Assembly (NCBI RefSeq): GCF_002754245.1
Contig: NZ_PEEX01000001.1
Coordinates: 4,320,001 to 4,384,000, forward strand
Direction of reading: 5' to 3'
DNA from: Chryseobacterium sp. 52
Lineage (GTDB): Bacteria; Bacteroidota; Bacteroidia; Flavobacteriales; Weeksellaceae
DNA: 64,000 bases
The position numbers were made by a program, and so were the translations under genes. The number at the start of each line of letters is the position of its first letter. Within the stretch, counting starts at the first letter, position 1. The notes beneath the pieces were generated by a model, which worked only from the letters and a program-made list of their open reading frames with translations, searched no databases and was not told where the DNA came from. Shown piece by piece: positions 36,521-43,376 of the stretch.

Positions 36521-37051
36521 ATGAAACGAGAAACCCAAAGATTAATTTTAAGAAAACTTGAAGAAACAGATGTTGAACGGATGTTTCTGCTGGATTCTAA
36601 TCCGGAAGTCATGAAATACATCGGTGTTCCGGTGCTTACAGAGCAAAATCAATCTTTAGATGTGATCAGAATGATCCGGAAGCAATACGAAGATAACGGT
36701 ACAGGAAGGCTTGCCGTAATTGAAAAAGAAACCGGACTGTTCATCGGCTGGAGTGGTCTGAAATTACTTACTGAAGAAATCAACGGTTATAACAACATAC
36801 TGGATCTCGGCTACCGTTTTTTACCTGAATCATGGGGAAAAGGCTATGCATTGGAATCGGCAATAGCTTCTCTTGAGCTTGGTTTTAACGAAATGGATGC
36901 AGATATTATTTATGCTCATGCCCATGACGGAAATGACGGATCCAATCATATCTTAAAGAAATTAGGTTTTGAGAAAACCGGTGAATTCACAGAACCTGAC
37001 GGGATCTGTAACTGGTACGAGCTTAAACGTGAAAAATATAGGTCAGTATAA
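36521..37051 (+). CDS. GNAT N-acetyltransferase, RimJ/RimL-like
   Basis: 176 residues: TQRLILRKLEETDVERMFLLDSNPEVMKYIG is the RimJ/RimL-like opening, followed by LGYRFLPESWGKGYALESAIA (acetyl-CoA loop WGKGYA) and NDGSNHILKKLGFEKTGEF. Members acetylate ribosomal proteins, polyamines or antibiotics; the acceptor here is unknown. It is 9 bp downstream of the LRR gene. The 166 bp after it hold no convincing gene. Confidence 0.88.
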   Translation: MKRETQRLILRKLEETDVERMFLLDSNPEVMKYIGVPVLTEQNQSLDVIRMIRKQYEDNGTGRLAVIEKETGLFIGWSGLKLLTEEINGYNNILDLGYRFLPESWGKGYALESAIASLELGFNEMDADIIYAHAHDGNDGSNHILKKLGFEKTGEFTEPDGICNWYELKREKYRSV

Positions 37052-37217
37052 TTTCAATCATATGGATTTATCTGAAGCTTGGTGATGAAAAAAACCACTA
37101 ATTTTGAAACTTATTTTCCTTTTGAAATCCTTGACGTGAGCAGAATGGTTCCGGAACCGGCAAAAAAGGATTAAGAAATATAAAAAATACAGTAAAACAG
37201 ACTAAAAAATATAAATA

Positions 37218-38018
37218 ATGCAGACTCAAAAAGTAATAGATCATATTGTAGAATGGCTAAAAGATTATGCTGTAAAAGCTAAAGTAAACGGATATGTCAT
37301 AGGGGTTTCCGGAGGTGTGGATTCCGGGGTAGTTTCTACTCTTGCAGCCATGACCGGACTGAAAACACTGCTTATCGAAATGCCGATACGTCAGAAGCCT
37401 GATCAGATAGACCGCGCGTGGGAGCACATGAATGATCTGAAATCAAAGTTTCCGAATGTAGAAGCAATGTCTGTAGATCTGACTCCGGCTTTTGAAGAGC
37501 TTTATAAAACATTTGATGTAAAGGATGATCTGTATCCTAATGAAAAACTGGCTTTTGCCAATACAAGATCGCGTCTCAGAATGCTTACTCTGTACTATTA
37601 CGGGCAGATTAACGGACTTTTGGTGTGCGGAACAGGAAATAAAGTGGAAGATTTCGGAATCGGGTTTTATACAAAATATGGCGATGGTGGTGTAGATGTT
37701 TCTCCTATTGCTGATCTGTTCAAAACGGAAGTATATACTCTTGCAAAGGCTTTAAATCTGGTTAAAAACATTCAGGAAGCTATTCCTACAGACGGACTTT
37801 GGGATGTAGACAGAACGGATGAACAGCAGATTGGTGCTACCTATCCTGAGCTGGAAAAAATCCAGAAAGAATATGGAAACAAAACGGCTGACGATTATGA
37901 AGGCCGTGATAAGGAGGTTTTTTTAATTTTTGACAGAATGCATAAAGCCGCAAAACATAAAATAGATCCAATCCCGGTTTGTGATATTCCTGAAGAATGG
38001 AGGGAAAACCAGTTCTGA
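37218..38018 (+). CDS. nadE: NH3-dependent NAD+ synthetase
   Basis: 266 residues, the short ammonia-dependent form without a glutaminase domain. Motifs: GVSGGVDSGVVSTLA (pyrophosphate-binding SGGxDS), NTRSRLRMLTLYYYG, LVCGTGNKVEDFGIGFYTKYGDGGVDVSPIADLFKTEV. It forms NAD+ from deamido-NAD, ATP and ammonia in the last step of NAD synthesis. The barnase-like gene begins 21 bp after its stop, so transcription may continue into that operon. Confidence 0.95.
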   Translation: MQTQKVIDHIVEWLKDYAVKAKVNGYVIGVSGGVDSGVVSTLAAMTGLKTLLIEMPIRQKPDQIDRAWEHMNDLKSKFPNVEAMSVDLTPAFEELYKTFDVKDDLYPNEKLAFANTRSRLRMLTLYYYGQINGLLVCGTGNKVEDFGIGFYTKYGDGGVDVSPIADLFKTEVYTLAKALNLVKNIQEAIPTDGLWDVDRTDEQQIGATYPELEKIQKEYGNKTADDYEGRDKEVFLIFDRMHKAAKHKIDPIPVCDIPEEWRENQF

Positions 38019-38039
38019 ATTTTAAGTTATACATAATAT

Positions 38040-38552
38040 ATGAACGGTAAAATAAGATCGGTATTTTTTATTTGTCTGGGCCTCCTTTTCGGGATGTCTG
38101 TGATGTATATCTACAATAATTTTATTGCGGATAAAAAAGGAGATACCGGAACCACAAAAACAGAAACCTCCCAATACGGAAGTGCTTCTTCAAATTCTCA
38201 AACTAATCATAACCCATCCTCACCATCAATAGATCAATTGACCGAGGAAAAAACGGTTATTAATTATGTAAAGCAGAACCACGCGCTTCCTGCTTATTAT
38301 ATCACCAAAAATGAGGCTAAAAAGATGGGTTGGAATCCTTCCAAAGGGAATCTTTGTGATGTGCTCCCTGGAAAAGCAATTGGTGGTGATACATTCAGCA
38401 ATCGTGAAAAAAGACTTCCCGGAGACGAAAAATATTACGAAGCAGATGTGAACTACAGTTGTGGAAACCGAAATGCAGACAGGATTATTTTTACCAAAAA
38501 TGGCGATGTCTATCTAACAAAAAACCATTATAAAAGTTTTGAAAAGCAGTAA
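38040..38552 (+). CDS. Barnase-family ribonuclease with N-terminal membrane anchor or signal
   Basis: 170 residues. Residues 5-25 are a hydrophobic segment (signal or anchor), 30-65 a Ser/Thr/Asn-rich linker, and 66-170 a barnase/RNase N1 domain. All barnase catalytic positions are kept: Lys90 (YITKNEAKKMGW), Arg122 (SNREKRLPG), general base Glu134 (YYEADVNYS), Arg144 and Arg148 (CGNRNADRI), general acid His163 (KNHYKSF). An extra Cys pair (106, 141) may form a disulfide. It should cleave single-stranded RNA after purines, mainly G. A barstar homologue is encoded two genes downstream, as expected for self-protection. Confidence 0.93.
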   Translation: MNGKIRSVFFICLGLLFGMSVMYIYNNFIADKKGDTGTTKTETSQYGSASSNSQTNHNPSSPSIDQLTEEKTVINYVKQNHALPAYYITKNEAKKMGWNPSKGNLCDVLPGKAIGGDTFSNREKRLPGDEKYYEADVNYSCGNRNADRIIFTKNGDVYLTKNHYKSFEKQ

Positions 38553-39156
38553 TTTATTTGGTCTTGCCACTCTAATATTCTTGGCATTCTCATGCTCGGA
38601 AAAGCAGCAGCAGTCTGTAAAGAGTGGCAAACCGATGACTATACTGATTCAGCCGTTTAAAGATTTCACTCCTGAAAATGCAGCTGAAACAGCTGAAAAA
38701 ATCAGGAAGATCTACCCGAACGTAAAGATTCTTGATCCCATTGATTTCCCTAAAAACGCCTATTATCAGGCAAGAAACCGCTACAGAGCAGATTCTATCA
38801 TTAAATTTTTGAACAGCAGAACAAAAGAAGGTTTTGTGACTATTGGCCTGACCTCAAAAGATATCAGCGTTACCAAGGGAAAAATAAAAGACTACGGAAT
38901 TATGGGGTTGGGCTACAGACCCGGAAAAGCCTGTGTGGCCTCAAAATACAGACTCAATAAGAATAACGTGAATGAGCAGTTCTTTAAAATAGCCATTCAC
39001 GAACTGGGACACACCCAGGGATTGAAACACTGCCCTGAAAAAACATGCTTTATGAGGGATGCAGAAGGCGGAAATCCAACTGATTCGGAAACAGATTTCT
39101 GCCACAAATGCAAATTTTTTTTAAATAATAAAAACTGGAAATTTAATTCTATATGA
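38539..39156 (+). CDS. Archaemetzincin-family (M54) metalloprotease lipoprotein, TTG start
   Basis: 205 residues. The TTG at 38539 is the only start giving the lipoprotein signal MKSSNLFGLATLIFLAFSCSE (Cys19); an in-frame stop lies just upstream, and the first ATG would remove the signal. The zinc motif HELGHTQGLKHC (His154, Glu155, His158, His164) with following CxxxxCxM (Cys165, Cys170, Met172) and a CHKC pair (188, 191) fits archaemetzincins, which carry a second structural zinc. Substrate unknown. The gene overlaps the barnase gene by 14 bp and the barstar gene by 4 bp (ATGA), so the three are translated together. Confidence 0.88.
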   Translation: MKSSNLFGLATLIFLAFSCSEKQQQSVKSGKPMTILIQPFKDFTPENAAETAEKIRKIYPNVKILDPIDFPKNAYYQARNRYRADSIIKFLNSRTKEGFVTIGLTSKDISVTKGKIKDYGIMGLGYRPGKACVASKYRLNKNNVNEQFFKIAIHELGHTQGLKHCPEKTCFMRDAEGGNPTDSETDFCHKCKFFLNNKNWKFNSI

Positions 39157-39446
39157 AAACAATATATATCGATTTTACAGAAATCGGCGATTATGATGAT
39201 TTTTACACTCAATTAAAGGAAAAGGTTAGTCTTCCTGAACATTTTGGGGATAATCTCGATGCATTGGCCGATACCATTACCGGTGACCTGGAAATGCCGC
39301 TTCACCTTGAGTTTGTGAATATGACAGTAGACCAGCTGGAGATTTTTGAAGATCTGCTGATCACTCTCGAAGACGCCGAAGAAGAAACAGAAGATTTTAG
39401 TTTTACCTATTATCTGGAGCAGTATGAAGATGAAAATGAAGATTAA
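39153..39446 (+). CDS. Barstar-family ribonuclease inhibitor
   Basis: 97 residues matching barstar: LPEHFGDNLDALADTITG corresponds to the barnase-binding helix, with Asp36 and Asp40 at the positions of barstar Asp35 and Asp39; DLEMPLHLEFVNM follows as the next strand. The C-terminus is strongly acidic (YLEQYEDENED). It lacks a signal peptide and so should stay in the cytoplasm and block any barnase that is not exported. Its start overlaps the archaemetzincin stop by 4 bp. Tight coupling supports co-production with the nuclease. Confidence 0.93.
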   Translation: MKTIYIDFTEIGDYDDFYTQLKEKVSLPEHFGDNLDALADTITGDLEMPLHLEFVNMTVDQLEIFEDLLITLEDAEEETEDFSFTYYLEQYEDENED

Positions 39447-39522
39447 CAAAAAAATATATATATTATTTATACTGATAAATAATAATCATTAACTTTATTT
39501 CATAAAAAATCCCCCGCAAATC

Positions 39523-40773
39523 ATGAAAAGAATACAAATCCCTCTTGTATTGTTATTATTTAATCTTTCACTCACAAGAGCACAAGTAGGCATTAATAAT
39601 TTCGCTCCAGCTTCCACACTGGATATCTCGGCAAAGAATTCTACCGGAACCAGCACGGATGTTGATGGATTATTAGTCCCCAGAATTGACCGGCAAAGAG
39701 CCCAAAGCATGGCCGGTATCCCTTTATCAACAATGATCTACGTCAACAATGCGGCCACCGGCTCATTAGCTGGAACGGCGATAAATATTGATACTGTAGG
39801 CTATTATTACTTTAATGGAACATTATGGGTAAAATTAATTCCTTCAACAAATATTTATAATTCCAACGGGACATTATCCGGCTTACGAACCGTAACCACC
39901 AATGGAAATAGTCTGAGCTTTATAAACGGAGCAAATTCTGTAGCTATTGGTACTAATGCTATCGAAGGACGACTTGTGGCAACCGGCTCTTCAAGAGGCT
40001 CATTACTTTTAGCCGGAGGTTCCGGAAATATGGATTTTTACGTTGATGATGCCGGTGCTGCACAGATTAATTCTTATGGAAATTCCACGAAACTGAATGT
40101 GGGATCTACGAATGCCAGCCTTGTTGCATTAAAAGCAAACGGAATAGACCGATTAAATATTCTGGGTAATGGAAACGTAGGAATAAGAACAGCTTCACCT
40201 AATACAAAACTGGAAATCACTTCCGGTACTCCCAATATCTCAGGGACAAGACTTACCAATCTAACTTCGGCATCACCTATAAGCACAGGACAGACTTTAG
40301 GAGTGGATGCCACAGGGAATGTCATTACAGTAGCCAATCCAATGCCGGTAAGTGTAAATACTTCTTCCGTAAACAGTGTTACCGGGGCCAATTTTAATGT
40401 AAATGATATTAGTATTACGACCATTCCGGGCACTTCGCAAACCATAACGATTCCTACGGGTGGAAAAGCATTATTTATCAATTTCATGCTGGGAATAGAT
40501 TATGGTAACAACCCCGCTAGTAGTGGTTCATCATACTATGAAGCAAGATTGTATATAGATGGTGCAGCCACAGATTGTTATATGCGTACCCAAGAATATG
40601 GTCCCGGAGGACTAAGCGCACAGTTCAGTTTTAATACGGTAAAATTTCTTGCGGCAGGAAATCATACTGTTGATATAAGAATGACAAGGACATTTAATAA
40701 TGGTGTTGCTTCCGGGACTAATATGCTATGTGTTCCAATATCAATGTCATTTAACGCTACCTATTTAAATTAA
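39523..40773 (+). CDS. Secreted surface-type protein, array 1 copy A
   Basis: 416 residues, signal peptide then AQVGINNFAPASTLDI, the common N-terminal motif of flavobacterial secreted tail- or adhesin-like proteins. Layout: head (about 20-110, with DGLLVPRIDRQRAQSM and GYYYFNGTLWVK), a middle section with repeated short strands (GNVGIRTASPNTKLEI, like phage tail-fibre segments), a linker, and a C-terminal beta-sandwich (PTGGKALFINFMLGIDY, ARLYIDGAATDCYMRTQE). No T9SS domain. First of three paralogues; about 50 bp separates each. Function unknown; a surface adhesin or fibre is inferred. Confidence 0.8.
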   Translation: MKRIQIPLVLLLFNLSLTRAQVGINNFAPASTLDISAKNSTGTSTDVDGLLVPRIDRQRAQSMAGIPLSTMIYVNNAATGSLAGTAINIDTVGYYYFNGTLWVKLIPSTNIYNSNGTLSGLRTVTTNGNSLSFINGANSVAIGTNAIEGRLVATGSSRGSLLLAGGSGNMDFYVDDAGAAQINSYGNSTKLNVGSTNASLVALKANGIDRLNILGNGNVGIRTASPNTKLEITSGTPNISGTRLTNLTSASPISTGQTLGVDATGNVITVANPMPVSVNTSSVNSVTGANFNVNDISITTIPGTSQTITIPTGGKALFINFMLGIDYGNNPASSGSSYYEARLYIDGAATDCYMRTQEYGPGGLSAQFSFNTVKFLAAGNHTVDIRMTRTFNNGVASGTNMLCVPISMSFNATYLN

Positions 40774-40824
40774 ACTTTAAATAATGTATTAGTTCTATAA
40801 TAATACTAAGCTTAAACATTTCTT

Positions 40825-42072
40825 ATGAAAAAAATATTACTTCCTATTATATTGTTTTTAGCCGGTACATCACTGGCAAATGCACAAGTTGGGGTCAATA
40901 CCACATCCCCTGCGTCTACCCTCGATGTCGCAGCAAAAACCCCAACAGGTACGTCCACCGGTATTGATGGATTACTGATTCCCAGAGTTGACAGACAAAG
41001 AGCCCAAAGTATGGCTGCGGTACCAATCTCTACATTAATTTATGTAAACAGTATCGCTACAGGAACTTTGACCGGTACCGCAATAAATATCGATGCCGCA
41101 GGGTATTATTATTTTAATGGTACAGTCTGGACAAAATTAAATCCTGTTATCAATATTTATACATCAAATGGTACCTTAACGGCACCCCGAACGGTAACGA
41201 CCAATGGAAATTTTTTAAATTTTGTCAATGGAACCACTAATGTTGGTATTAATACAACCGCAACAGAAGGAAGAATTTCCGCAAGTGGTCCTTCAAGAGG
41301 TTCTATAACGTTCAACGGAGGTTCGGCAAATTTGGATATGTATGTAGACGATACTAATGCAGCTCAGATTAACTCCTCCGGAAATTCGACAAAACTGAGT
41401 ATGGGAACCACCAATACGGCTCCTTTGACATTGAAAACAAATGGAACAGAAAAGGTGAGCATACTGGGCAACGGAAATATGGGTATTGGAACAACTACTC
41501 CGAATACAACACTAGAGCTGGCCTCAGGAACAGCAAATACTTCAGGTCTAAGATTGACCAATCTTACCTCTGTATCCCCCATAGGTACCGGACAGGCAAT
41601 AGGAGTTGATTCAAGCGGAAATATAGTTACTGTTGCCAACCCCAATCCTACCAACATCAATACTTCTTCTGTAAACAGTACAGCAGGAACCAGTTTTAAT
41701 GTCAATGATCTCACAGCCAGTATTGTTTCAGGAACCTCACAGACCATTGCAATTCCCGTAGGAGGAAAAGCCCTGTTCATTAATTTTATGCTGGGAATAG
41801 ATTATACGAATAATCCTCCCGGAAGCGGCGTTGCTTATTATGAGGCCAGGTTATATATTGACGGAGTCGCAACAGACTGCTATATGCGTACTCAGGAAAT
41901 TGGAGTTAGTGCTAATGCATTTTTCAATATCAGTACTATAAAATTTCTGGCAGCGGGCAGCCATATCATTGATGTAAGAATGCTAAGAACATTCAATAAT
42001 GGTACAACTTCAGGTGCTAATATGGCATGTAACCCCATTTCAATGTCATTTAATAATTCATATTTAAATTAA
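40825..42072 (+). CDS. Secreted surface-type protein, array 1 copy B
   Basis: 415 residues, paralogous to copies A and C along the whole length. Signal peptide ending ANA-QVGVNTTSPAS; head with DGLLIPRVDRQRAQSM and GYYYFNGTVWTK; middle NMGIGTTTPNTTLELASG; C-terminal sandwich with VGGKALFINFMLGIDY and DGVATDCYMRTQE. Differences cluster in the loops between strands and in the stretch before the last strands (NISTIKFLAAGSHIIDVRM). Same strand and probably same transcript as copy A, 51 bp downstream. Confidence 0.8.
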   Translation: MKKILLPIILFLAGTSLANAQVGVNTTSPASTLDVAAKTPTGTSTGIDGLLIPRVDRQRAQSMAAVPISTLIYVNSIATGTLTGTAINIDAAGYYYFNGTVWTKLNPVINIYTSNGTLTAPRTVTTNGNFLNFVNGTTNVGINTTATEGRISASGPSRGSITFNGGSANLDMYVDDTNAAQINSSGNSTKLSMGTTNTAPLTLKTNGTEKVSILGNGNMGIGTTTPNTTLELASGTANTSGLRLTNLTSVSPIGTGQAIGVDSSGNIVTVANPNPTNINTSSVNSTAGTSFNVNDLTASIVSGTSQTIAIPVGGKALFINFMLGIDYTNNPPGSGVAYYEARLYIDGVATDCYMRTQEIGVSANAFFNISTIKFLAAGSHIIDVRMLRTFNNGTTSGANMACNPISMSFNNSYLN

Positions 42073-42125
42073 ATTTAAATATTGCTTTTTTACTTTTAAA
42101 AAGTTACCGATAAAAACATACAATT

Positions 42126-43376
42126 ATGAAACGAATTCAACTCTCAATTATATCGTTATTTTCAGGTATTTCACTTATGCTGGCACAGGTTGGAATCAAC
42201 AGTAACACTCCCGCCTCTACACTGGATGTCACAGCAAAAAATGCAACAGGCACCACCACCAATACTGATGGATTACTGGTTCCAAGAGTAGACAGACAGA
42301 GGGCGCAAAGTATGACCGGAGTTTCAGCTTCTACACTCGTTTATATAGATAACATAGCTACAGGAACTTTGACAGGCACTGCAGTAAATATGAATGCGGT
42401 AGGCTATTATTATTTCAATGGAACCGTCTGGGCAAAAATAGATCCTTCTGTAAATATTTATAATTCGGACGGATCCCTGCCAACATCCAGAACTGTAAAT
42501 ACTGCCGGAAACTCCTTAAGTTTTGTAAACGGGACAAATAGTGTCGGAATTGCAACAGGGACCACACAGGGAATTCTTTCTGCAAGTGGGTCTTCAAGAG
42601 GGTCTATAACCTTATCCGGAGGATCAGCAAATTTCGACATGTATGTGGATGATGCTAATTTAGCACAGATTAATTCTTCCGGAAATTCAACCAAATTGAG
42701 TATAGGAAGTATAAATGCCACTTCTACTACCCTGAAAACAAACAATACAGAAAGACTTTATATATTAAGTAACGGAAATATAGGCATCGGTACACCAACT
42801 CCTAATACCACACTGGAAATAGCATCAGGTACAGCCAATACCTCTGGGGTAAGATTAACAAACCTTACTTCTGCGGCTCCCATAGGTACCGGACAATCTT
42901 TAGGAATTGATGCAACCGGAAACATCATTACAGTTGCCAATCCAGCCCCGGCAAGTATCAATACATCTACTGTAAACAGTACCACCGGAGTAGATTATAA
43001 TGTAAATGATCTTGCATCTACCATTGTCCCCGGAACTTCACAGATTGTTACAATACCGGCAGGTGGAAAAGCTTTGTTTATCAATTTTATGCTGGGAATA
43101 GATTATGTGGGTTCTCCTGTAGGAGGTGGGCAGGCTACTTATGAGGCAAGACTCTACATAGACGGAGTGGCAACAGACTGTTATCTGCGCAGGCAGGAAG
43201 CCTCAATAGCCGGAGCCAATACCCAGTTTACAATCAATACCGTAAAGTTTCTTGGAGCCGGAAACCATACCATTGATGTAAGAATGATAAGAGCCGTTAA
43301 TAATGGTAGCACATCAGGTTCTGATATGCCCTGCAGACCTATTTCAATGTCTTTTAACGCTTCATACATCAACTGA
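42126..43376 (+). CDS. Secreted surface-type protein, array 1 copy C
   Basis: 416 residues, third member. Signal peptide ending in MLAQ; head STLDVTAKNATGTTT and DGLLVPRVDRQRAQSM; GYYYFNGTVWAK; middle NIGIGTPTPNTTLEIASG; C-terminal sandwich AGGKALFINFMLGIDY with DCYLRRQEA instead of DCYMRTQE. It is followed by a strong terminator at 43402. The last residues in the three copies (SFNATYLN, SFNNSYLN, SFNASYIN) are nearly the same, so the C-terminus is probably under constraint. Confidence 0.8.
   Translation: MKRIQLSIISLFSGISLMLAQVGINSNTPASTLDVTAKNATGTTTNTDGLLVPRVDRQRAQSMTGVSASTLVYIDNIATGTLTGTAVNMNAVGYYYFNGTVWAKIDPSVNIYNSDGSLPTSRTVNTAGNSLSFVNGTNSVGIATGTTQGILSASGSSRGSITLSGGSANFDMYVDDANLAQINSSGNSTKLSIGSINATSTTLKTNNTERLYILSNGNIGIGTPTPNTTLEIASGTANTSGVRLTNLTSAAPIGTGQSLGIDATGNIITVANPAPASINTSTVNSTTGVDYNVNDLASTIVPGTSQIVTIPAGGKALFINFMLGIDYVGSPVGGGQATYEARLYIDGVATDCYLRRQEASIAGANTQFTINTVKFLGAGNHTIDVRMIRAVNNGSTSGSDMPCRPISMSFNASYIN

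Follow-up and report, generated by a model that had tools for sequence, protein, structure and literature searches.

The window analysed here, a stretch of 64,000 nucleotides from Chryseobacterium sp. 52 (whose genome is a single contig of 5.3 Mb), contains four consecutive genes on the + strand, the last three of them tightly packed. The first, nadE, encodes NAD synthase (37218..38018) and is a directly upstream neighbour that is not part of the system. It is followed by a gene for a 170-aa barnase-family RNase (38040..38552), recognized by PF00545 and by matches to barnase chains, by a gene for a 205-aa archaemetzincin-type lipoprotein of family M54 (38539..39156; PF07998), which starts at a TTG codon within the end of the barnase gene, and by a gene for a 97-aa barstar-family RNase inhibitor (39153..39446; PF01337), whose ATG overlaps the M54 stop by 4 bases. 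The original prediction had announced three fully overlapping genes at 38040-39446. The open reading frames of the window do contain the 14-bp and 4-bp (ATGA) overlaps that it gave, and with overlaps of these lengths its title was overstated. Directly downstream of barstar (39523-43376) lie three tandem genes for secreted proteins of 415-416 aa that are mutually related.

A regular-expression scan revealed a promoter-like site of Bacteroidota type upstream of nadE (TTG, 17 bases, TAATTTTG; 37079..37106, + strand), which holds the only TAnnTTTG found on the + strand within 36900-39600. TAnnTTTG preceded by TTG is the promoter motif of Bacteroidota; because seven such pairs occur on the + strand across the window, the site is weak evidence. 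Consensus scans of the window revealed no + strand TAnnTTTG from nadE to barstar and no excess of sigma-70-type sites over shuffled sequences (8 versus 8.1), which speaks against a promoter belonging to M54. No terminator-like site was found on the + strand from the end of nadE to barstar. Barnase, M54 and barstar are probably co-transcribed with nadE.

The barnase matches PF00545 (E 1.5e-15, 57.9 bits for a cut-off of 24) and solved barnase chains (E 2e-32). It is made of a membrane anchor (residues 7-24 approximately), a linker (approximately 25-65) and an RNase domain that begins at residue 66. Residues Lys90, Glu134, Arg148 and His163 (and also Arg144) align with the catalytic positions of the barnase chains, and the first four are kept in 105, 107, 107 and 106, respectively, of the 107 relatives described below. 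The barnase family and the complete set of catalytic residues that had been proposed are therefore confirmed. Departures at the catalytic positions were listed only in G081, G090, G025 and G115; in the latter (locus L055) the matched frame contains a stop and has no residue at the His102 position, which suggests a possibly broken RNase beside a retained barstar. The proposed N-terminal export or anchor segment held as well, since 106 of 107 barnases have a predicted hydrophobic stretch: 27 out of 27 in loci bearing M54 and 79 out of 80 in loci lacking it, the exception being cut by a contig end. G082 (L010 / L140, Chryseobacterium defluvii) has an altered anchor that ends in ...FFVSNC and could act as a lipoprotein signal rather than simply as an anchor. 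All 107 barnases have Cys106 and Cys141, located at Cys positions of the 1bne chain that presumably form an engineered disulfide in that protein. From this alignment, the pair is a probable natural counterpart of the 1bne disulfide, and such a bond would fit life outside the cytosol.

The inhibitor matches PF01337 (E 4.9e-19, 68.5 bits for a cut-off of 23.4) and solved barstar chains (E 1.1e-8). Both key aspartates attributed to it are indeed conserved, D36 being D in 103 and D40 in 107 of the 107 relatives. No export signal is apparent in the window barstar. Since M54 has a lipobox and barstar has no such signal, the two proteins would be expected in different compartments, and this argues against the earlier suggestion that M54 degrades barstar. 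Judging from these signals, the RNase and M54 are probably located outside the cytosol and barstar inside. A further barstar domain (PF01337, E 7.7e-8) forms the C-terminus of a 236-aa protein outside the window (G000:C1:4416055-4416765; L252:756-1466), with no barnase match within 3 kb.

The protein encoded between both matches PF07998 (E 5.7e-9, 36.7 bits for a cut-off of 24.4) and, in sequence, the solved archaemetzincins (E 9e-12). A structure model built on an 18-row alignment (pLDDT 82.3, pTM 0.76) gave five PDB matches with E <= 0.001, namely four archaemetzincin chains and the archaeal zinc-dependent peptidase 3lmc; 3zvs_B was matched with a Foldseek E of 6.5e-12. According to this model, M54 has a metzincin fold of the archaemetzincin type. 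Its zinc-binding motif, HELGHTQGLKHC, lies at 38998..39033 (+ strand) and is found in its extended form in 25 of the 27 family copies. The description of M54 as a lipoprotein with the archaemetzincin zinc motif is supported. The archaemetzincin fingerprint reads HEXXHXXGXXHCX4CXMX17CXXC in PMC3427221. Every residue named in it is present in the window M54, which shares fold and HEXXHXXGXXHC...C.M...C..C motif with AmzA from Archaeoglobus fulgidus (3zvs/4axq) and with the Methanopyrus kandleri protein 2x7m. It differs from these by its lipoprotein signal and by having 15 residues, not the 17 of the fingerprint, from the Met-turn to the last Cys pair. It also stays under the cut-off of the NCBIfam archmetzin profile NF033823 (119 of 145 bits). 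A lipobox-like Cys is present in 49 of the 50 unbroken M54 proteins encoded between barnase and barstar (an arrangement hereafter called triad), and L153 has a Tyr.

We searched 148 Weeksellaceae genomes for the three families. Whole-genome matches were obtained for M54-like proteins in 34, for barstar in 116 and for barnase in 83, this last count being too low, for the PF00545 search missed the barnase of the window itself as well as five or more others in this genus. Presence was therefore judged from the DNA around barstar, using profiles built in this analysis. These surroundings were scored in 115 of the 116 genomes, leaving out G055, which has a weak barstar match elsewhere. A barnase gene lies beside a full barstar gene, on the same strand, in 107 of the 115; the other eight are six loci without barnase and two with a partial barstar. 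M54 is found between both genes in 27 of the 107 loci, 24 of them with an unbroken frame, and is absent from 80, where 78 show no trace and two a scar. Seen from the side of M54, 27 of the 34 M54-positive genomes have barnase, M54 and barstar in the same order, the co-occurrence that the original prediction had proposed to look for. The remaining seven comprise G060 and G120, with a distant paralog elsewhere, and five genomes (G007, G022, G055, G071 and G088) with a solitary, more distant M54 that has no barnase or barstar nearby. This demonstrates that the placement of M54 between barnase and barstar exceeds chance. What stands of the proposed system is a real, packed arrangement in one orientation, kept across several genera; what does not is its indispensability, since a toxin system of three fixed genes would retain all of them wherever the pair is present, and 80 of the 107 pairs do without M54. 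The upstream neighbour varies too. nadE was present in the examined stretch of 23 of the 27 M54-bearing and 54 of the 80 M54-less loci, and the Epilithonimonas loci examined, both with and without M54, have another gene upstream and no nadE in the stretch. An intact triad in this genus implies that the arrangement has outlived a change of neighbourhood.

The 20 Chryseobacterium genomes comprise 13 with an unbroken M54, two with a broken one, two with scars and three without M54. Among the broken copies of the family, that of G010 is interrupted by a single in-frame stop, perhaps a sequencing error, that of G020 has stops and a frameshift, and that of G043 is devoid of its first half. In G060 and G120 the scar consists of only the last M54 codons before barstar. 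Five losses or breaks of M54 are hence caught in the act, and in all five genomes barnase and barstar are kept, their key residues not being among the listed departures.

The gap between barnase and barstar has also received other DNA. A GIY-YIG open reading frame (PF01541, E 2.3e-14) is present there in seven of the 107 loci (G060, G072, G103, G108, G120, G136 and G142). It spans about 100 aa directly behind the barnase stop (L005:1119-1427, and the gaps of L006-L009, L062 and L070) and is accompanied by inverted repeats (CATTGCGAGGA... / ...TCCTCGCAATG), the L006 copy seeming frameshifted. This insert looks like a small mobile element. Three loci of genus g9 (G068, G101 and G138; L063, L064 and L065) carry in the gap a 5-kb efflux operon with OEP/TolC-like, HlyD-like and ABC-2 permease genes, which a DDE transposase gene interrupts in G068. 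In G134 the gap (L066:928-1512) is a tandem repeat of short GCAAGAATATA-like units and contains no gene. The space between an RNase gene and its inhibitor gene can thus accept unrelated genes over long times and, as a consequence, a gene found between a toxin and its inhibitor should not be presumed to belong to the system.

A scan of named genomes, from which the best 80 of at least 157 M54 relatives were kept, extended these observations beyond the family sample. Barnase and barstar surround M54 in 51 of these best 80 of at least 157 loci, and 49 of the 51 are labelled Chryseobacterium, Epilithonimonas, Halpernia, Cloacibacterium, Soonwooa or Weeksellaceae. In the M54 tree, the two triads with looser labels, L151 and L160, cluster with these genera. 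The other 29 of the best 80 of at least 157 belong to Chitinophagaceae, Flavobacterium, Cytophagales, Sphingobacterium, Dysgonomonas and unnamed Bacteroidota. These solitary lipoproteins are of the same family as the window M54 (48-59 % identity among the loci listed) and differ in their surroundings: up to 3 kb on each side, and less for some, none of the 29 has a barnase or a barstar. Likewise, among 296 genomes of the same order, none of the 11 stronger M54 matches outside the family adjoins a barnase or barstar gene; family f3 added about nine weak paralog matches. The neighbours of 24 solitary M54 genes, read by eye, showed no common theme.

In a quick tree of 87 M54 sequences, from which the broken copies L155 and L163 were left out, a single branch (SH-aLRT 97) separates the 50 triad copies from the 37 solitary ones; 17 of the 84 inner branches of this tree are starred and some of its rows are long. 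All copies of the triad clade that were seen lie in the barnase-barstar gap. On the tree of the 107 barnase+barstar pairs, the M54 state (29 pairs with M54 or a scar) needs at least 15 changes, four of them forced by starred branches. The single M54 branch and these changes of state together fit one entry followed by repeated loss. The at least 15 changes could also reflect repeated exchange of whole cassettes instead of one gain and many losses.

Selection on the genes was compared in 61 close pairs drawn from 46 loci with nadE, again without L155 and L163. The median dN/dS of M54 was 0.095 (60 pairs), and those of its neighbours were 0.046 for barnase (58 pairs), 0.030 for barstar (56) and 0.031 for nadE (61), all of them rough values because the synonymous distances in these pairs are high (medians 0.78-0.95). 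M54 is under purifying selection, although weaker than that on its neighbours. This dN/dS and the archaemetzincin fold argue against a pseudogene or a chance reading frame. Furthermore, the distances of M54 correlate with those of barnase (Spearman 0.86; 0.78 with nadE taken into account) more closely than barnase correlates with barstar (0.73; 0.60 with nadE taken into account), a sign of common history and perhaps also of a functional tie.

We think it rather likely that M54 is an accessory exported peptidase that was added to an older RNase-inhibitor pair. The starting state would be a chromosomal barnase-barstar pair of Weeksellaceae, usually behind nadE, whose RNase would be exported and held at the membrane by its N-terminal anchor and a linker of about 40 residues, while cytosolic barstar would neutralise the RNase left unexported. 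The ancestor of Chryseobacterium, Epilithonimonas, Halpernia, Cloacibacterium and Soonwooa would then have gained, in the gap, a gene encoding an exported M54 lipoprotein such as those found as solitary genes in other Bacteroidota. This gene would be read with barnase and barstar and maintained by purifying selection, and would often have been lost without harm to the pair. Its product would most likely be an accessory hydrolase that acts alongside the RNase outside the cytosol, for example in the breakdown of cell debris, and the RNase would be independent of it. Two observations speak against a mere accessory, namely the intact triad of Epilithonimonas without nadE in the stretch and the M54-barnase correlation exceeding that of barnase with barstar, but both fit a functional tie or simple packing alike. 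The confinement to the gap of every triad-clade copy seen also speaks against it.

A tighter tie would exist if M54 were a dedicated sheddase that cuts the linker of the tethered barnase and so releases a toxin or a scavenging RNase. Both proteins are predicted to be exported and to be made from one transcript, the long linker looks soluble, and the strong distance correlation and the persistence of the triad would fit as well. However, if M54 cut the linker, differing linkers would be expected where M54 is absent, and their lengths do not differ: anchor and linker are alike in the 80 loci without M54, the variable linker after the hydrophobic segment having a median of 40 aa in both sets. The sole linker motif noticed, Y[GS]S, tracks genus rather than M54, as it is found in Chryseobacterium in 13 of 15 M54-bearing and four of five M54-less loci, and in other genera in none of 12 M54-bearing and none of 75 M54-less loci. 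Moreover, M54 is lost while the pair persists, and the solved archaemetzincins, which are archaeal, showed no activity on standard substrates according to PMC3427221. The earlier idea that M54 frees the RNase from its linker thus finds no support, and we regard such a sheddase as unlikely. It would take its most complete form, which we find quite improbable, if a co-transcribed archaemetzincin lipoprotein switched a tethered periplasmic RNase from anchored to released, with the cytosolic inhibitor serving as a safety catch. If true, this would be a three-part, export-linked device for RNase release and would provide the first specific substrate of a bacterial archaemetzincin.

At the other extreme, M54 may be a passenger in a tolerant landing site, functionally unlinked to the RNase, as could be expected from a gap that also houses GIY-YIG frames (7/107), an efflux operon (3) and tandem-repeat filler (1), from the lack of M54 in 80 of 107 loci and from a dN/dS two to three times that of its neighbours. 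Yet M54 is under purifying selection, its stop overlaps the barstar start by four bases in 35 of 50 unbroken triads, and no member of its clade was seen away from the gap, all of which makes a passenger doubtful. Very improbable, in our opinion, is a contact- or lysis-dependent antibacterial unit with the RNase and M54 as effectors and barstar as immunity protein. In its favour, PMC3482391 reports, for toxins trafficked outward, a toxin-then-immunity order and a wide distribution of simple barnase-barstar pairs. On the other hand, proteins of 170 and 205 aa with only an anchor or a lipobox have no delivery domain, M54 has no second immunity gene and the pair is conserved, not polymorphic. Polymorphic toxin systems combine a large N-terminal delivery region with an exchangeable C-terminal toxin, and the 170-aa protein found here consists of anchor, linker and RNase. 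PADLOC gave no match either, though it covers defence and not delivery; a defence system was rejected as the three proteins had no match in it.

Like the Bacillus barnase/barstar and the other simple pairs of PMC3482391, the locus has the catalytic residues, the two aspartates and the toxin-before-inhibitor order; it differs from a simple pair by an RNase with a membrane anchor and linker instead of a plain secretion signal, and by the presence of M54 in the gap. No description of a barnase-M54-barstar arrangement was found in the titles and abstract beginnings of the open-licence papers searched. The arrangement is real, conserved and apparently undescribed in those papers; it looks like an optional extra of a known kind of pair, and not like a three-part system of fixed composition. 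Archaemetzincins are peptidases without a well-established substrate, the solved archaeal ones having been inactive in standard assays (PMC3427221), and an exported M54 clade kept in one RNase-inhibitor locus over several genera offers a concrete place for a substrate hunt. An M54 gene of another sort lies in G000 outside the window (G000:C1:1272211-1272519; L001, L253). This second, distant copy has a frame of about 293 aa that gives no match to the lipoprotein kind, and is present in several other genomes of the genus.
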